From the NCBI GenBank assembly GCA_029959545.1, contig JASCPH010000010.1, positions 1 through 64,000 of the forward strand: DNA of 64,000 nt, read 5' to 3'. The notes under the pieces were generated by a model that did not search any database, was not told the DNA's origin, and worked only from the letters and a program-made list of their open reading frames with translations. Below, in pieces: positions 36,226-64,000 of the stretch. Each line of letters begins with the position of its first letter. Within the stretch, counting starts at the first letter, position 1. The DNA is from Microbacteriaceae bacterium PS02066 (GTDB taxonomy: Bacteria > Actinomycetota > Actinomycetes > Actinomycetales > Microbacteriaceae). The translations under genes were made by a program, and so were the position numbers.

Positions 36226-36298
36226 GGCCCCATCGTTTAGCGGCCTAGGACGCCGCCCTTTCACGGCGGTAGCACGGGTTCGAATCCCGTTGGGGTCA
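36226..36298 (+). tRNA. tRNA-Glu (TTC)
   Basis: 73 nt cloverleaf; anticodon loop CTTTCAC gives anticodon TTC, T loop GGTTCGAATCC, acceptor GGCCCCA pairs with TGGGGTC (one G-U). CCA not encoded. Confidence 0.95.
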
Positions 36299-36325
36299 CA
36301 CAACCGAATACAATTAAACAAGCAT

Positions 36326-36399
36326 GGCCCTGTAGCGCAGTTGGTTAGCGTGCCGCCCTGTCACGGCGGAGGTCGCGGGTTCAAGTCCCGTCAGGGTCG
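36326..36399 (+). tRNA. tRNA-Asp (GTC)
   Basis: 74 nt cloverleaf; anticodon loop CTGTCAC gives GTC, discriminator G as expected for Asp, acceptor GGCCCTG pairs with CAGGGTC. 27 bp after tRNA-Glu, probably co-transcribed. Confidence 0.95.
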
Positions 36400-36410
36400 C
36401 TCTGAGCGAC

Positions 36411-36437
36411 GGGCCCTTCTCGAAGGGCCTTTCGTTT
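36411..36437 (+). terminator. Terminator after tRNA-Asp
   Basis: GGCCCTTC (36412-36419) and GAAGGGCC (36422-36429) followed by TTTCGTTT, a typical intrinsic terminator. Confidence 0.8.
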
Positions 36438-36480
36438 AGGACGCGGCATCGCGTCGCCTCGCGCGATACGGATGCTGCGG

Positions 36481-36553
36481 GGCTCTGTAGCTCAGTTGGT
36501 AGAGCGCACGACTGAAAATCGTGAGGTCACGGGATCGACGCCCGTCGGAGCCA
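36481..36553 (+). tRNA. tRNA-Phe (GAA)
   Basis: 73 nt cloverleaf; anticodon loop CTGAAAA gives GAA, acceptor GGCTCTG pairs with CGGAGCC, discriminator A. The T-arm reads ACGGGATCGACGCCCGT rather than the more usual GGTTCGA, but pairs fully. The foreign-looking metal block begins about 270 bp beyond it, so it is a candidate island insertion site. Confidence 0.93.
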
Positions 36554-36558
36554 CTGGG

Positions 36559-36819: not shown

Positions 36820-38925
36820 TCAGGCATGGGCGTGTTCGGGCTCGCGAGCGGGTATCGCGGCCAATTGCCGGAGTGCAGCGGGGCGACGGGCGGCGCGGAC
36901 GCCGTTGAGGATGACGACAACCTCGGCGATCTCGTGCATCAGGACCACGCCGGCGAGCCCGAGCACGCCGAACAGCGCGAGCGGGAACAGCACGACGATG
37001 ATCGCCAGCGCCAGACCGATGTTGGCGGTCATGATCCGCCGGCCGCGGCGGGCGTGGGCGAGGGCGCCGGGGATGAGGCGGAGGTCGTGGCCGGTGAAGG
37101 CGACGTCGGCGGACTCGATCGCCGCCGCGGATCCCTTCACGCCCATCGCGATCCCGACCGTCGCGGTCGCCAGAGCGGGGGCGTCGTTGATCCCATCGCC
37201 CACCATCGCGGTCGGCCGCTGCGTAACGAGCGCCTCGATCGCAGCGGCCTTGTCGGCGGGGAGTTGTTCGGCACGGACATCGGTGATGCCGGCCTCTTGG
37301 GCGATGGCGTGGGCGGTGCGGGTGTTGTCGCCTGTGAGCATGATCGTCTCGATGCCCTGCGCTTGCAGCATCCGCACGGTCTCAGCCGATTCCGGGCGCA
37401 GCTCGTCGCGCACCCCGATCAGCCCGGCGATCTTCCGGTCCGCCTCGACCACGACGACCGTCATCCCCTGCTCGGCCATCGACTCCGCGGTAGTCCGCTG
37501 GGCACCGGGATCGAGCCAGCGGACGTTTCCGACCCGGATCGACCGTCCGTCAATGGTTCCGGTGATGCCGTGCCCGGCGTCCTCGACCACATCGCTGGCG
37601 GGACGCACGCCGGACGCCGCCTTGGTGATCGCGGCGGCAAGAGGGTGTGTGCTGGTCGCTTCCACCGCCGCAGCCCACGCGAGCAGGTCGTCGCGGTTGA
37701 CGCCCGATGCGGGTTGCACATCAACGACGGTGGGCTCGTTGCGGGTGAGGGTGCCGGTCTTGTCGAGGGCGACGGCGCGGATCGTGCCGAGCTGCTCGAA
37801 CGCCTCACCCGACTTGATCACGACGCCGAACTTCGACGCCGCGCCGATCGCGCTGATCACCGTCACCGGGACAGCGATCGCCAGCGCGCACGGGGACGCC
37901 GCGACGAGCACGACGAGGGCACGTTCGATCCAGGTCCACGGGTCGCCGACCAGCAGCCCGAACAGCGCGACAAGGGCCGCGGCAATCAGGACAGCAGGGA
38001 CGAGGGGGCGAGCGATCCGGTCGGCCAGGCGTGCCCTCTCGCCCTTACGGGCGTGGGCCTGCTCCACCAGGGCGACGATCTGTGTGAGGGAGTTGTCGCG
38101 GCCGTCCGCGGTCGCCTCGATCCGCAGGGTCGCGGACCCGTTCACCGACCCGGCGGCGACCGGGTCACCGGGGCCGACCTCGACCGGGATGGACTCGCCC
38201 GTGATCGCCGACGTGTCCAGGCTCGACCTGCCCTCGACGACCACGCCGTCGGTGGCGACGCGGTCGCCGGCGCCGACGACGAGGATGTCCAGTTCACGCA
38301 CGTCGGCGGCGGGGATCGTGACGTCGCCAGTCAGGCGGGAGACGCGAACGGTGTCGGGGATGAGGGACAGTAGGGCGCGCAGGCCCTCCTTGGCGCGGTC
38401 CATCGCCCGGTCCTCGAGCGCCTCGGCGAGGGAGAAAAGGAACGCCAGCGTCGCCGCCTCCCCGACATGCCCGAGCAGCACGGCGCCGATCGCGGCAATT
38501 GTCATCAGCAGCCCGACCCCGAGCCGGCCCCGGATCAGGCGGCGGATCGCGCCGGGAACGAAAGTGTAGGCTCCGGCGAGCAGCGCCGCCCACTGCAACA
38601 CCAGCGCGGGGATGTCCAGACCAGTCCACTCGAACGTGTACCCGGCGAGGAGGAACACCCCGGACAGTGCGGAGGGAAGCAGGGCGAGGTCGCGCCACCA
38701 GAGCGGGCGGACCTCCGGCTCCTCGTCCGCCGCAGCGGTGGTGGTGGTGAGGTCGGGTCCACAGCAGGCATCGCCCGCCTCGTGCGCCGCGCGTGGCGCC
38801 GTGGTCTTGGAGGAGGGTTCCGGGGCGCAGCAGGCGTCACCGGTCGCGAGCGGCCGGGACAATTCGATTCGCCGGATCGTGGCGGGCTTGCGCGGCTCAT
38901 CGGGGCCGCAGCACTCTTCGCTCAC
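36820..38925 (-). CDS. cadA: CadA-type heavy-metal P1B ATPase with Cys-Cys N-terminus
   Basis: Metal-exporting P-type ATPase (701 aa), most likely Cd/Zn/Pb given its CmtR-like regulator. P-ATPase motifs: TGESIP, the SPC translocation motif in the membrane, DKTGTLT phosphorylation site, THPLAAAI (HP motif) and GDGINDAPAL. No classical HMA domain; instead three CC pairs (5-6, 32-33, 54-55) lie in a 70-residue N-terminal tail ahead of the first span. The tail ends are poor in other signals and the C-terminus is HAHA. Last gene of a four-gene operon, overlapping the EQxCC gene by 4 nt. Confidence 0.9.
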   Translation of the reverse strand: MSEECCGPDEPRKPATIRRIELSRPLATGDACCAPEPSSKTTAPRAAHEAGDACCGPDLTTTTAAADEEPEVRPLWWRDLALLPSALSGVFLLAGYTFEWTGLDIPALVLQWAALLAGAYTFVPGAIRRLIRGRLGVGLLMTIAAIGAVLLGHVGEAATLAFLFSLAEALEDRAMDRAKEGLRALLSLIPDTVRVSRLTGDVTIPAADVRELDILVVGAGDRVATDGVVVEGRSSLDTSAITGESIPVEVGPGDPVAAGSVNGSATLRIEATADGRDNSLTQIVALVEQAHARKGERARLADRIARPLVPAVLIAAALVALFGLLVGDPWTWIERALVVLVAASPCALAIAVPVTVISAIGAASKFGVVIKSGEAFEQLGTIRAVALDKTGTLTRNEPTVVDVQPASGVNRDDLLAWAAAVEATSTHPLAAAITKAASGVRPASDVVEDAGHGITGTIDGRSIRVGNVRWLDPGAQRTTAESMAEQGMTVVVVEADRKIAGLIGVRDELRPESAETVRMLQAQGIETIMLTGDNTRTAHAIAQEAGITDVRAEQLPADKAAAIEALVTQRPTAMVGDGINDAPALATATVGIAMGVKGSAAAIESADVAFTGHDLRLIPGALAHARRGRRIMTANIGLALAIIVVLFPLALFGVLGLAGVVLMHEIAEVVVILNGVRAARRPAALRQLAAIPAREPEHAHA

Positions 38926-39266
38926 TGCTCGCGCTCCTTCGTTGCGGGGGTGGGCGTCTGCTCGAGGAACGTGAGCGCAGCCAGTGCGTCATCGGTGCCG
39001 GTCACGGTCAGGCGCAGGTCGGGGTGAGTCGTGTCGATCGTCCAAGTCGCGAACGCACAGCAGGACTGCTCGGTGCGGACCAGCTCCGTCAGCCGGGCGG
39101 TCGCGTCGTCGATCTTCGGGTAGTGGAAGGTGGTCTGGCCGGCCGCCCTGTCGAGGTCGAGGAGGTAATCGTCGTTGAACTCCTGCCACGCGGCCAGCTG
39201 TGCAGCGCCAGCGCCGGGCGTCAGCGTGCAAGCCACCGGCAGCAAGTCACGGTCGACGAGGCTCAT
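38922..39266 (-). CDS. Small conserved protein with EQxCC motif in Cd/As operon
   Basis: A 114-aa cytosolic protein with three cysteines: Cys13 (PVACTLTPG) and a Cys69-Cys70 pair inside RTEQSCCAFATW. I recognise it as a recurrent companion of actinobacterial metal-resistance operons but know no assigned function; the cysteine arrangement would suit metal or metalloid binding or transfer. It is coupled on both sides by ATGA overlaps, to the CmtR-like gene upstream and cadA downstream. Confidence 0.75.
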   Translation of the reverse strand: MSLVDRDLLPVACTLTPGAGAAQLAAWQEFNDDYLLDLDRAAGQTTFHYPKIDDATARLTELVRTEQSCCAFATWTIDTTHPDLRLTVTGTDDALAALTFLEQTPTPATKEREQ

Positions 39267-39613
39267 GCGCAGCACTCACACTGATCATCCATGCACGGGG
39301 CGCCCTCGTCGACGGCGACGACCGCGTCGAGCAACTGGCGCAGCCCCTGGGTCAGATGCGGGTCGGCGATCTCATACCGGGTGCGTCGCCCCTCCGGAGT
39401 CGCGACGATCAGCCCGCAGCCACGCAGGCACGTCAAGTGATTCGAGACGTTCGTCCGCGTCAGCTTGAGATCCCGCGCGAGCTCGGCCGGGTAACCAGGA
39501 GCATCCAACAGTGTGAGGAGGATCCGGGAACGGGTCGGGTCGGCCATCGCCCGACCCAAACGGTTCATCACATCGAGACGAGAAGCAAGAGTCAGCACAC
39601 GCTGACTATACAT
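39263..39613 (-). CDS. cmtR: CmtR-like Cd(II)/Pb(II)-sensing ArsR/SmtB repressor
   Basis: Winged-helix metal sensor (116 aa). Its sequence follows mycobacterial CmtR closely: LGRAMADPTRSRILLTLLD, TRTNVSNHLTCLRGCGLIVA, with the sensing pair Cys62 and Cys66 of TCLRGCG in the recognition-helix region and the distal Cys107 (PCMDD). Three further C-terminal cysteines (112, 114, 115) are extra. Metal binding should release the operon promoter. It overlaps the ACR3/BASS gene by 8 nt and the EQxCC gene by 4 nt. Confidence 0.88.
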   Translation of the reverse strand: MYSQRVLTLASRLDVMNRLGRAMADPTRSRILLTLLDAPGYPAELARDLKLTRTNVSNHLTCLRGCGLIVATPEGRRTRYEIADPHLTQGLRQLLDAVVAVDEGAPCMDDQCECCA

Positions 39614-60508: not shown

Positions 60509-60660
60509 CCGTGTGCAAATTAGAGAGCCTGACCCGTTTCCCGAACGACAACCCTAGGCCTTGAAGAGAGTGCGTCGTCGAGTTCTTCGACAACGCCGAA
60601 GGTTAATAGCGGTCACTCGTTCCGGGCGATGCATGCTCGTGCAGCCGCGAGAACGTCGCG

Positions 60661-60729
60661 ATCGCCCGACACCGCAGCGCTGCGACAACTCGCCACTGCG
60701 CCCGCTCGCGAGCCCGCTCACGCCTGACC
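60661..60729 (+). pseudogene. Possible remnant of a CadA-type ATPase C-terminus
   Basis: In one frame this stretch reads AALRQLATAPAREPAHA and a stop, closely resembling the last residues of the CadA at 36820 (AALRQLAAIPAREPEHAHA). The DNA shares the run CCCGCTCGCGAGCCCG. Nothing before about 60660 matches. The remaining 60502-60836 region has no gene that I can support. Confidence 0.4.
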
Positions 60730-60836
60730 GACCCCTCGCCCGCGGCGTGATCGTGCCGCCTGACTTGGAGCCGGGACCATCCTCAGCAAGCATTCGTCAC
60801 TGAGCACTTGGGACGAGCCGCAGGGTCGCTGCTGAC

Positions 60837-61067
60837 TTACTGAGTTGCGAGCAGGATGGCGGTATAATCCCCCTCCGTGAGTAGATCCAGCGACATGTAT
60901 GCGAACTCGACCGCGTCGAAGCTGTTCGGCACCATCTGCCAGTCATCTTCGAGTCCGGTCGTCTTGTACTGCGGTTCGTATCTCCATGTCTTGAGAATCC
61001 GAACCAGCTCGTCGTGATCGATCTCCCCGCGCTGCGCCCGTCTCACGATGTCCATCGCAGTCTCCAT
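60837..61067 (-). CDS. Small hypothetical protein downstream of the phosphoesterase
   Basis: A 76-aa acidic protein without membrane segments or cysteines. Helix-rich start IVRRAQRGEIDHDELVRILKTW, then an aromatic-rich middle and NSFDAVEFAYMSLDLLTEGDYTAI. No family recognised. AAGGGGA ribosome site before the ATG. Located 81 bp downstream of the phosphoesterase gene on the same strand, so could be a third member of that unit. Confidence 0.55.
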   Translation of the reverse strand: METAMDIVRRAQRGEIDHDELVRILKTWRYEPQYKTTGLEDDWQMVPNSFDAVEFAYMSLDLLTEGDYTAILLATQ

Positions 61068-61148: not shown

Positions 61149-61970
61149 TCAAGTCATTCCGCCCTCTAACTCGATCTTGAGAGCGTCTATGACGTCGGAT
61201 TCACGTCCGAGCACAAGAAGATCGATCGGTCGTGCGCCATCGAGGTTCGCGTTGTGCCCGCGAAGCCATGCCTGCGCAGCACTCGGGACGTACAGCCGAT
61301 CGAGAAGGCCAGCTATCTCGACAGACACGGGCGCATCACGCCGCATATCGGAAAGGCTCCCGAGCCATCGATCAATCACATCAAAGGGCACAGGTCGAAA
61401 GTCGAAGGCGTCCACGCCGACGTGGAACTCGTGCGAACCGTGGGGTCCGAACCCCCTGTCGTGCGTGTGACCGTGGACCAGCGGCACGCCACTGTCATTT
61501 GGACGGCGGGAACTGTGTCGCTCTACTCCGGTCGAGTCGCCCACGAATGGATAATGCGATGCGAGCAGACGACGGCCGTGCCGGTGCCCGTCAAGAACCT
61601 CAGACAAAACCGTCCACCCTGCATCCTCGTAGATCGGCCGGAACCTCTCGATTGCTCGGTTCGACTGAGTCGCCGGCGAGACGCGGTCGTGATTGCCGGG
61701 GACGAGCAGGCGCCTGCCGTTGAGGCGCGATGTCAGCCCAACGCTCTGCTCGATCGGACCGAGAGCGAGGTCGCCGAGATGCAGCACGGTGTCGTCGGGA
61801 CCCACGAGATCGTTCCAGCGCTCGACCATGACGGCGTTCATCTCATCAACTGAATCGAAGGGCCGGTCAGCCAGCTCGCTTATGCGAGCGTGCCCGAAGT
61901 GATGATCACTCGTCACGAAGTCGATGGCATCGAAGTCGAAACCCATCGCCTCAGGTCGTTCGTCAGTCAT
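61149..61970 (-). CDS. Metallophosphoesterase fused to an MbcA/ParS/Xre (DUF2384)-like domain
   Basis: A 273-aa two-domain protein. Residues 15-200 are a phage-type calcineurin-like phosphoesterase with all metal motifs: SDHHFGH (21-27), GDL (66-68), GNHD (92-95), SHYP with His139, and GHTH (167-170). The last 50 residues, AQAWLRGHNANLDGARPID onward, match the C-terminal toxin-binding domain of MbcA/ParS/Xre antitoxins in the WL-x-N-x-L-x-G-x-RPIDLL pattern. I know no described system with this fusion. ATGA overlap with the PD-(D/E)XK-like gene upstream makes them one translational unit. Confidence 0.75.
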   Translation of the reverse strand: MTDERPEAMGFDFDAIDFVTSDHHFGHARISELADRPFDSVDEMNAVMVERWNDLVGPDDTVLHLGDLALGPIEQSVGLTSRLNGRRLLVPGNHDRVSPATQSNRAIERFRPIYEDAGWTVLSEVLDGHRHGRRLLASHYPFVGDSTGVERHSSRRPNDSGVPLVHGHTHDRGFGPHGSHEFHVGVDAFDFRPVPFDVIDRWLGSLSDMRRDAPVSVEIAGLLDRLYVPSAAQAWLRGHNANLDGARPIDLLVLGRESDVIDALKIELEGGMT

Positions 61971-62926
61971 CCCCGCTGTCCCTTCCGCTCACCGCGAGTC
62001 TCCCCGCTGAGCAGGTACCTGATCCGCGCCCGTTCCTCCTCGATGTCCACAGACCGGCACGCGATTCGCTCGATGAAGTCGACGAGGCCCCACCTTGTCA
62101 GGTGCCCGTAGCGTGACGAGTAGATCCCGAGGCGTGTGATCCCATACTCGTCGTCGAGGTCGAACAGGGCGTAGCCGAGCATCTGGTAGACGTCCACGTT
62201 ACGTAGATCATCGTGACACCGCTTTGTTCGCGCATTCCGCTCCCCGATTCGCGTCTTCAGATCGAGCAAGCAGCCGGACGCGATCAAGTCGGCATCGGCT
62301 TTGCAGAAGGCTGAGCCGGCGAATGTCGGCCCGAGATCGAACGGGCCGTTCAGGGCGGGCAGCAATCTCGATTCCGCCAGCGCCATCAAATCCCCCAGTT
62401 CTCGAGAGGCATCGTTGGGCACGACGGCGAGCAAGCCGTCGACGTCCATCTCGCCGTCCGTGAGGAACGCCTGAAGAGGCGAGCCTGCTGTGAGGCCGAC
62501 TCGATAGACCTCAGTGAAGAGCGCAATGGCCCAGCAGCTCGCGTGCAAGTCGTTCCACGAGTGTTCGGTTGCAGCGAGCTGAGCCCTTCGGATCACAGCG
62601 TCGACGCCAGCGAGAATCTCGGGACGAGTCGTGAATGCGCTGCGGGCAACGTCGGCGTCGTACATCGGGTCGAGACGGAATCGAATCGCAAAGTCGAACG
62701 CCGCACCGAGGGTGCCAGCGTTCACCCCAGTCCAATCGATCAGCATCGGTCCGGCTGCGACTCGGTAGTCGCGCTGCAGCCCACGCAGATCCTTCACCAG
62801 TGAATCGAAGTACTTGCGGAGCGGAGATTGCTTGTCTTTGATCTCGTACGTAAGGCTCGAGAACACATAGTCGTTGGAGTGCGTGGGCTCTTCCGATGAG
62901 AAGCCCGGAAGCATGAAGTCTGGCAT
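61967..62926 (-). CDS. PD-(D/E)XK-like putative nuclease
   Basis: A 319-aa protein. The putative catalytic core is in the C-terminal third: KADADLIASGCLLDLKTRIG gives Asp211/Asp213 and the Asp222-x-Lys224 pair, followed by VYQMLGYALFD (Gln248), the order seen in PD-(D/E)XK nucleases. N-terminal 200 residues are helical without recognised domain. ATG 62926 chosen because a TAGGAC box lies 7 nt upstream and the longer frame has no family-like sequence. Coupled to the phosphoesterase fusion; next to an integrase. Confidence 0.6.
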   Translation of the reverse strand: MPDFMLPGFSSEEPTHSNDYVFSSLTYEIKDKQSPLRKYFDSLVKDLRGLQRDYRVAAGPMLIDWTGVNAGTLGAAFDFAIRFRLDPMYDADVARSAFTTRPEILAGVDAVIRRAQLAATEHSWNDLHASCWAIALFTEVYRVGLTAGSPLQAFLTDGEMDVDGLLAVVPNDASRELGDLMALAESRLLPALNGPFDLGPTFAGSAFCKADADLIASGCLLDLKTRIGERNARTKRCHDDLRNVDVYQMLGYALFDLDDEYGITRLGIYSSRYGHLTRWGLVDFIERIACRSVDIEEERARIRYLLSGETRGERKGQRG

Positions 62927-63012: not shown

Positions 63013-63210
63013 TCATGGCCATCGCTTGAAGACGTCGTCGAACGCATCGACGTGCGCGAGCGAGCGCTCGATGTGCGCCAGTTCGTGCTCATCCGCGAAC
63101 TCGTCGGCGTTGCGATCGAGCAGATTGCGATGTTCCCCGAGAGCATTGACGAGGATCGCGTGGCACTCGGGGTTGGCGAGCAGTTCGTCGAGTTCGTGGT
63201 GAACGTCCAT
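63013..63210 (-). CDS. Small hypothetical protein coupled to integrase
   Basis: A 65-aa acidic, His-rich helical protein (LDELLANPECHAILVNALGE, HELAHIERSLAHVDAFDDVF). No HTH visible, so not an obvious excisionase. ATG 63210 overlaps the integrase stop (TGATG); GTG 63213 is an alternative. Confidence 0.55.
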   Translation of the reverse strand: MDVHHELDELLANPECHAILVNALGEHRNLLDRNADEFADEHELAHIERSLAHVDAFDDVFKRWP

Positions 63211-64000
63211 CACTCCCCCTCACCGAAGAGCGAGTCGATCGCAGCTGCCGCGCGGCGGGCGACATCGGAGCGGGCGCGGCTATAGCGCTCCGTCATTTGC
63301 ATACTGGAGTGTCCGAGCACGGCCTGGACGTCGTTGGCCGAGGCGCCCGCGTCGAAGAGCATCGTGGCGAGCGTGTGGCGCAAGTCGTGGAGTCGCAGAT
63401 CGTCGCGGTGCAGCTTCGCGCGGAGCGTCTTCCAGTCGATCGCGCGACGCACGTTCGATGCGTTGATCCGGCCGCCGCGAGGCCCCGTGAAGACGAGCTC
63501 TCCGCGATGCTTGCCGGTCATTGCGTCTGTCAGCGGCGCGACGAGTGGCGTCGGGATCGGCACGTCTCGCTCCTTATGGCTCTTCGGCGTCAGCTCGACT
63601 CCGCGACCGTCCGCGCCGATGCTGAATGCCCGGCGGACGTGGATCGTCCGATGCGCAAGATCGACGTCTTCGATGCGCAATGCCGTCGCCTCATTTGCGC
63701 GCATTCCGGTGTAGACGAGAGCGGCGATGTAGCGCCGATAGTGCGCATCATCGATCGCTGCAAGCAGCATCGGCACCTCCGCGGCCGTGAGCGCTCGCGA
63801 GCGCAGACTCGTCGCCGAATCCGACTTCGGTCGGCGCGCGAGACGTGCCTGATTCAGCGGCACGACGCGCGCACGCACAGCCCCGTCGAGCAGACGGCTC
63901 AGCACCGAGAGCGCGTCGATCCGCGTGGAGGTGCTCCCCTCCCATCCGGCGATCGCTTCCTCTATGAGGCCGGCCGTGAGCTTCTCGACCTTGACGTGTC
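63210..64000 (-). CDS. Tyrosine recombinase/integrase, 5' end beyond the window
   Basis: Phage-type site-specific integrase, partial: 263 codons are inside the window and the frame continues through its right edge. Core-binding domain residues precede a catalytic domain with ARG-I in YTGMRANEATALRIEDV, a Lys in SHKERDVPIP, HDLRHTLATMLF (His and Arg), LGHSSMQMTERYSRAR (His and nucleophile Tyr). Complete catalytic set R-K-H-R-H-Y, so likely active. It marks the right part of the window as a mobile element. Confidence 0.92.
   Translation of the reverse strand, partial: HVKVEKLTAGLIEEAIAGWEGSTSTRIDALSVLSRLLDGAVRARVVPLNQARLARRPKSDSATSLRSRALTAAEVPMLLAAIDDAHYRRYIAALVYTGMRANEATALRIEDVDLAHRTIHVRRAFSIGADGRGVELTPKSHKERDVPIPTPLVAPLTDAMTGKHRGELVFTGPRGGRINASNVRRAIDWKTLRAKLHRDDLRLHDLRHTLATMLFDAGASANDVQAVLGHSSMQMTERYSRARSDVARRAAAAIDSLFGEGE

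Follow-up and report, generated by a model that had tools for sequence, protein, structure and literature searches.

DUF2384 is currently treated as the RES-binding half of one toxin-antitoxin (TA) family. What, then, is such a domain doing at the end of a metallophosphoesterase (MPE)? The question is raised by a locus of Microbacteriaceae bacterium PS02066 (assembly GCA_029959545.1, contig JASCPH010000010.1), of which we analysed positions 1 to 64,000 of the forward strand; this whole stretch of 64,000 nucleotides is called the window here. Near its end lies P0001, a gene that on sequence comparison fuses an MPE to a C-terminal DUF2384 (Xre/MbcA/ParS) domain, and beside it P0002, which encodes a nuclease-like protein. 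A first-pass annotation had taken the pair for a two-gene unit in which the antitoxin domain restrains the nuclease. Our results leave that unit unsupported and point to the fusion itself: the toxin-binding domain of Xre antitoxins may have been recruited, probably more than once, to work with an MPE instead of with RES. The genes concerned are listed below; their coordinates and strand and the 4-nt ATGA overlap of P0001 and P0002 (61967-61970) had been given correctly in the annotation.

61149..61970, minus strand: P0001, the MPE-DUF2384 fusion gene (MPE core at residues ~10-205, DUF2384 tail at ~206-273)
61149..61355, minus strand: DUF2384 (Xre/MbcA/ParS_C) tail with the stop codon; conserved WLxGxNxxLxGxRPID and terminal GG
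61356..61970, minus strand: calcineurin-like MPE core of P0001, nearest solved structure 1xm7 (Aquifex aq_1665)
61967..62926, minus strand: P0002, RecB/Cas4-like PD-(D/E)XK protein with a helical N-terminal half

A metallophosphoesterase with an antitoxin-type tail

The N-terminal part of P0001 has the full MPE metal-binding motif set (SDHHFGH, GDL, GNHD and GHTH), as the first-pass annotation had noticed, together with the MPE fold, and is of the phage type: residues 17-201 match the phosphoesterase family phrog_547 with an E value of 9.5e-40, and the MPE of a Mycobacterium phage is 37% identical to P0001. The Pfam model Metallophos_2 stays below its threshold (21.7 vs 27 bits). In the AlphaFold2 (AF2) model the MPE core has a pLDDT mostly >90, and the nearest structure is 1xm7 with a Z score of 18.8 and an rmsd of 2.6 over 169 aligned residues.

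The tail scores below the curated PF09722 cut-off of 24.5 bits, both within the whole of P0001 (20.8 bits, E 3.9e-4) and on its own (22.5 bits, E 1.2e-4). Its identity is nevertheless secure, because residues 201-271 are 45% identical over 75 amino acids to the Xre antitoxin of a Microbacterium sp. No. 7 plasmid, all ten aligned tail relatives match PF09722 (best 1e-9), and a profile of these relatives run against the Protein Data Bank (PDB) has ParS (6d0h) and MbcA (6fkg) as the best two of four matches, both weak (E 0.028 and 0.029). The gene of the plasmid antitoxin overlaps a RES toxin gene, and the stop codon of P0001 comes 1-2 residues past the GG that the two proteins have in common. 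The ten relatives all have W, L, N, L, G, R, P, D, V, A, G and G, and these signature residues and the terminal GG are kept in RES-linked and MPE-linked DUF2384 copies alike. On these comparisons we assign the last ~65 residues of P0001 to DUF2384. The first-pass annotation is thereby upheld on the identity of the domain and corrected on its start, which it had placed at residue 225; the similarity to antitoxins sets in at about residue 201.

A tblastn search of plasmids with the tail gave 12 records, nine of them annotated as Xre/MbcA/ParS toxin-binding or MbcA/ParS/Xre antitoxin proteins; the remaining three are a helix-turn-helix (HTH) protein, an unannotated record and the best match, a hypothetical protein of Microbacterium sp. 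No. 7. A RES gene directly follows the tail homologue in all three of the 12 matches that were inspected, the best one included. When this genome is compared with G853, another of the genus, pS is 0.667 and pN 0.235 in the DUF2384 part (0.693 and 0.197 in the MPE core); with pN well below pS, the tail is under purifying selection. Viral relatives showed no DUF2384 match in any of 79 loci with an MPE open reading frame (ORF), the best 80 of at least 535 viral relatives having been kept, and searches of viral contigs with P0001 alone or with the AT66 antitoxin gave nothing useful.

Linkage of the two domains in the genus

MPEs occur at 46 places in 33 of 217 genomes of the genus, and at least two other tail types, among several unrelated helical tails, occur on close MPEs. 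The search for the tail covered 366 genomes, of which 18 had a match at E<=0.01. In nine of these 18 a tail-like DUF2384 is fused to an MPE or lies within ~1.0 kb of one. Fusions are found in the window's genome (G000) and in G853 and G1030, whose proteins have 65% full-length identity to P0001; an early impression that the fusion was unique to the window's genome was overturned by these genus-wide searches. G973 has a separate DUF2384 gene directly upstream of the MPE gene and overlapping it, G814, G806 and G733 have an HTH1+DUF2384 gene divergent from the gene order hyp132-MPE-d76 (d76 being an ORF also found after P0001), and in G958 and G998 the DUF2384 lies 0.4 kb from the MPE. Four of the 18 genomes (G967, G1000, G804 and G316) have Xre-RES pairs, the DUF2384 of G695 has neither MPE nor RES beside it, and four weak matches (G859, G1003, G846 and G879) were left unclassified. 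Among the genes of G804 are some with 98.9-100% identity to genes on the two plasmids of Microbacterium sp. No. 7, which makes Microbacterium the probable genus.

By our own arithmetic from the 33 of 217 genomes, chance would bring an MPE and a DUF2384 within 2 kb at a rate of roughly 1e-4 to 1e-3 per locus, random placement being too easy a null for two kinds of gene that are both island genes. In a phylogeny of 25 selected MPE cores the link state changes four times. The topology tests reject a common clade for the linked MPEs as a whole (p 7.6e-5) and, marginally, a clade made up of the three fused MPEs (p 0.037); the fusion may have had a single origin with later exchange of the core. A limited search of the published literature found no MPE-DUF2384 fusion named.

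The window's genome has further MPE copies. The second (L023, contig C102 of G000, 38921-39526) has a different helical tail; recombinase, NYN and HTH genes precede it, a Hma-type helicase gene follows it, and the same block is present on two Microbacterium plasmids. The third (L024, contig C103, 12677-13301) is apparently frame-broken, its halves matching in different frames.

What the tail may do

Our favoured reading, which we hold tentatively, is that DUF2384 serves a new purpose here, independent of RES, as a tail that regulates, docks or restrains an MPE carried by a mobile element. It draws on these observations: DUF2384, which binds RES in known systems, is kept with its GG, an MPE stands where antitoxins have the HTH, RES is missing from the tested carriers, and a phage MPE is reported to be toxic. 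The last point comes from a mycobacteriophage, for whose MPE phosphodiesterase activity and toxicity are described (PMC12287305, in excerpt). The analogy for docking is NatR-NatT, where the C-terminal helix of the antitoxin enters the active-site cavity of the RES toxin (excerpted text of PMC11535050). In P0001 the MPE would replace the HTH and leave the C-terminal end of DUF2384 free, as in antitoxins; the C-terminal helix could then dock on an enzyme and regulate or restrain a phosphodiesterase or nuclease, in cis in the fusions and in trans where the genes are separate. The setting would be the integrase end of a pSAM2-like actinomycete integrative and conjugative element (AICE) with its cargo, in the order integrase, 66-aa ORF, exchangeable slot, MPE-DUF2384 and d76; P0002 would work within the same cargo block without being a dedicated partner of the fusion, and the outcome would be a mobile defence or stability cargo. 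A wider proposal, which we find possible but more doubtful, is that mobile MPE-DUF2384 modules, fused or neighbouring, act in actinobacterial AICEs and defence islands as RES-independent TA-like systems or self-restrained anti-phage effectors, with a swappable neighbour gene (here the putative nuclease) as a second effector.

If the re-use of the tail is true, DUF2384 would be an enzyme-docking module of more general use, and annotation that labels these proteins as RES antitoxins could mislead. The tail would also give a handle on the role of the abundant element- and phage-borne MPEs, as it should lead to a partner or regulator.

Several points weigh against this reading. The tail is modelled by AF2 with low confidence (pLDDT 44-63); the VIA structure list for P0001 is filled by MPEs, so that the absence of DUF2384 structures from it is uninformative on the tail. 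Most MPEs of the genus have other tails or none, with no DUF2384 seen nearby, and DUF2384 is therefore dispensable for MPE function in general. The link in G814, G806, G733, G958 and G998 may be mere joint residence in defence islands, and the rows of the MPE tree (25, or 27 with two long outgroup rows) were picked for context and not at random. In G973 the DUF2384 frame (L255, 7711-8049) runs past its GG with no stop and overlaps the MPE gene, in a different frame, for ~40 codons, possibly through a frameshift or a lost stop, and a free C-terminus consequently does not fit there. The contact between DUF2384 and MPE, as well as the activity and toxicity of this MPE subfamily, is putative and argued from analogy. 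As for the setting, RepSA (query RepSA of L208) had no match in the window's genome, and no tRNA is present at the integration site, between 58000 and 65925 of the contig.

That RES is missing had already been noted in the first-pass annotation and proved correct: PF08808 had no match in the window's genome. Searching the window by tblastn with three RES proteins gave chance-level matches only (best E 0.13), on which a decayed RES gene beside the fusion was rejected as well. RES was absent in 5 of 5 tested carrier genomes (G806 being 88% complete), with G1030, G973, G958 and G998 covered in fetched stretches only, and no fetched locus had both an MPE and a RES66 match.

These results also bear on a rather unlikely alternative, that P0001 is an orphan antitoxin with an anti-addiction role. 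The tail would neutralise RES in trans, for instance on competing plasmids, and so protect the AICE or its host, while the MPE may destroy the RES product ADP-ribose-1''-phosphate (RES products as stated in a part of PMC11535050). Consistent with this, the inspected tail relatives adjoin RES genes on actinobacterial plasmids, the signature residues and terminal GG are conserved whether the domain is linked to RES or to an MPE, and G967, G1000 and G804, all three of this genus, carry a near-identical Xre-RES pair. The missing RES in all five tested carriers speaks against it, though a competing RES need not be resident; the ADP-ribose-phosphate substrate is purely conjectural, and the repeated linkage of the domain to an MPE in particular would be left unexplained.

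The mobile element

Besides P0001 and P0002 the locus comprises the following features.

63210..63998 in the window and on to 64211 of contig C11, minus strand: tyrosine integrase, 333 aa, PF00589 E 8e-29
63013..63213, minus strand: 66-aa ORF overlapping the integrase stop
60837..61067, minus strand: d76, a 76-aa ORF downstream of the fusion
60518..60836, no strand: zone holding the insertion end, from comparison with the G706 chromosome

The integrase, upstream of P0002, bears out the mobile context that the first pass had proposed. The chromosome of a relative, G706, is near-identical (96%), and its continuous match to the window ends at 60517; beyond this point G706 gives only a 113-base match of 76% in the other orientation, at 60672-60774. 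Because the chromosomal match stops there, we regard the P0001/P0002/integrase block as an accessory insertion. Beyond the integrase, near the contig end and on the opposite strand, lies a gene that by eye is transposase-like (contig C11 64287-65693; L022 6288-7694).

Homologues of the 66-aa ORF occupy the same place in related elements (82% identity in G973, 48% in G782, 40% in G1030, 37.5% in G853 and 36% in G755), and those of d76 directly follow the MPE in G973, G814, G806 and G733. The closest gene order is that of G973, which reads RepSA, integrase (94% identical to that of the window), 66-aa ORF (82%), a slot gene X, DUF2384, MPE (79%) and d76 (78%), with a tRNA-Phe 1.8 kb beyond the cargo. 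G853 and G1030 have RepSA, integrase, 66-aa ORF, X and MPE-DUF2384, followed after 2-3 kb by the tRNA-Phe; G782 and G755 have the integrase, the 66-aa ORF and an MPE without DUF2384, with the tRNA-Phe 0.3-0.5 kb on and no X seen. Overall the tRNA lies 0.3-2.9 kb beyond the cargo in the relatives and is tRNA-Phe in G853, G782, G755, G724, G825, G1030 and G973 and tRNA-Met in G775 and G606. RepSA stands beside the integrase in G853, G782, G775, G825, G1030 and G973 (PF20199 E 1.5e-147) and was not seen in the G755 and G724 stretches, and an FtsK_SpoIIIE gene is present in related elements. By their gene content these look like pSAM2-like AICEs. With P0002 in the place of X, no RepSA and no tRNA at its site, we take the window copy to be a displaced integrase-end piece of such an element, its cargo genes intact.

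Insertion of the window copy at a tRNA-Phe was rejected, as a search around its site gave no copy of the tRNA-Phe end. A tRNA-Glu/Asp/Phe cluster lies at 36226-36554 of the window, and its tRNA-Phe is identical in 74 of 74 bases to that beside the G782 element. In G724 a single open frame (L215, 5919-7421) starts out FtsK-like, judged by eye and by its resemblance to L214, and ends as the C-terminus of an integrase; it looks as though the intervening DNA had been deleted.

A scan that took in some of the MPE loci agrees with the defence context proposed in the first pass, finding Hma, UzuA, restriction and AIPR genes near several relatives. Close MPEs, the C102 copy included, lie directly upstream of Hma-type helicase genes; the Hma genes on a Microbacterium plasmid match HmaA with E 0 and HmaB with E 1.2e-271 (the name is from PMC8565338, and a link of Hma to BREX-related systems is given in PMC12839542). 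The G853 element has a UzuA match (5e-87) and a uracil-DNA-glycosylase-like gene, the G806 island has restriction genes and, by eye, TniA/TniB/TniQ-like genes, G958 has a TniQ match, and an AIPR gene adjoins the integrase in G755.

The neighbouring nuclease-like gene and the remaining readings

P0002 itself has no match in Pfam, NCBIfam or PADLOC. Its homologue family has the motif GxDxDxI...(D/E)xK...QxxGY, of which D211, D213, D222, K224, Q248 and Y252 are invariant in a 17-row alignment (A6) and fall into one region of the gene.

62171..62296, minus strand: predicted catalytic motif region of P0002, residues 211-252 (D211, D213, D222, K224, Q248, Y252)

The AF2 model (pLDDT 80.7) aligns with MGME1 (Z 8.9, rmsd 4.6 over 162 residues), AddAB (8.3) and RecB (8.2), and also with Dna2, AdnA and ACE1; these Z scores are near the middling level of the tool, and nearly all top rows belong to the PD-(D/E)XK clan. 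Plain Foldseek gave no match at E<=0.001 (best Dna2, E 0.11), and the top matches of a profile of P0002 relatives against the PDB were irrelevant. From the invariant motif residues and the structural alignments we assign P0002 to the RecB-type PD-(D/E)XK proteins as a putative nuclease, in agreement with the nuclease-like core recognised in the first pass.

The relatives of P0002 either stand alone as proteins or form the C-terminal part of UvrD-like helicases. A scan of genome contigs gave 22 loci with such relatives, of which 19 are in one frame with a UvrD-like helicase and none has an MPE match. Plasmid records matching P0002 number 54 (43 of them Streptomyces), phage records gave no match, and searches with P0002 alone against viral contigs and against genome contigs gave nothing useful. 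On the Streptomyces plasmids, too, the P0002-type domain is often C-terminal in a UvrD-like helicase; several matches start 2.7-5.2 kb into their record, and one such record (L040) is of a linear plasmid. In G316 (L031, 5679-9032) a P0002-like domain forms the N-terminus of a protein of ~1100 aa that is repeat-rich by eye; similar long frames are present in G818, G817, G875 and G827.

A conserved pairing of P0001 with P0002 is rejected by these surveys. An MPE was found in 2 of 46 distinct places with P0002 relatives (58 loci minus 12 re-fetches, from a hand-made list, several with only ~1.5 kb of flank), namely this locus and one in G748 with an MPE fragment. In G606, G775 and G724 a P0002 relative directly follows a related integrase with no MPE match, and in three related MPE/DUF2384 elements the slot is occupied by X208, a gene family unrelated to P0002, the two having no BLAST match to each other. 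The X208 protein has no Pfam family over cut-off (DUF2797 at E 0.3 only) and no PADLOC match; by eye we take it to be GIY-YIG-like (a nuclease type) and DUF7662-like. The first-pass annotation had itself named homologues found apart, with no conserved pairing, as evidence that would count against it: this is what we find for P0001 and P0002, and it does not hold for the association of MPE and DUF2384, which recurs. P0002 has the look of a replaceable neighbour that shares the cargo block with the fusion, and not of its dedicated partner.

Accordingly we consider it unlikely that the tail binds or restrains the adjacent nuclease in a two-gene defence or addiction unit. The 4-nt overlap of P0001 and P0002 does suggest coupled translation, the G973 DUF2384 gene likewise overlaps the X208-family gene in the same slot by 4 nt, and the slot before DUF2384 is filled in 4 of 4 integrase-linked loci (G000, G853, G1030 and G973), with no slot gene seen in G782 and G755, which lack DUF2384. 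However, one DUF2384 surface would need to bind both P0002 and X208 although the two do not match, relatives of P0002 stand without an MPE in 44 of the 46 places, and in G814, G806, G733, G958 and G998 DUF2384 accompanies an MPE at loci that have no gene like P0002 or X208.

Neutral capture, in which recombination joined an antitoxin 3' end to an MPE and the tail is a tolerated helical extension, is improbable: the other tail types on close MPEs and the start of the antitoxin alignment at an RW(L/I) common to both parents would fit it, but the tail is conserved between species with pN well below pS, and the fusion is present in three species, with six more genomes having the domain as a separate gene linked to the MPE. 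The integrases here are of the tyrosine type and that of Bxb1 is a serine integrase, and close MPEs are also met where this integrase is missing, either upstream of Hma systems or near genes of Tni-type transposition, which makes it just as improbable that the MPE and its tail are an accessory factor for integrase control and not a defence effector. That role would have its precedent in Bxb1 gp47, an MPE given as a recombination directionality factor in an excerpt of PMC12287305, and would suit the MPEs near a related integrase in seven genomes (G000, G853, G782, G755, G825, G973 and G1030).

Comparison with known systems

With pSAM2-like AICEs the window locus shares the tyrosine integrase; its relatives have RepSA and an FtsK-like gene as well, and past the cargo a tRNA for Phe or Met, whereas the window copy is without RepSA and without a tRNA at its site. 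P0002 resembles the RecB-type PD-(D/E)XK nucleases (MGME1, AddA, RecB, AdnA, Cas4 and ACE1) in motif and predicted fold, and its gene is without a helicase, unlike 19 of the 22 relatives in the genome-contig scan. PADLOC RTasPDDEXK, a reverse-transcriptase-associated nuclease (DRT), is matched by 8 of 11 members of the P0002 family (best 1.5e-9) and not by P0002 itself. P0001 has the same MPE motifs as the phage MPEs, phrog_547 and the cluster A mycobacteriophage proteins A10ZJ24 Gp48, Bxb1 gp47 and D29 Gp66 (the phrog_547 match being that of P0001 and implying no membership for these three), and differs from its viral relatives (0 of 79) in having a DUF2384 tail. Set beside Xre-RES, MbcTA and ParST, in which a DUF2384 antitoxin is paired with a RES NAD+ phosphorylase, the fusion differs in having no adjacent RES (best E 0.13) and none in the genome by PF08808, and P0001 has no HTH and instead an MPE at its N-terminus; it is like the antitoxins of these systems in its C-terminal DUF2384, in the signature residues and in the terminal GG.

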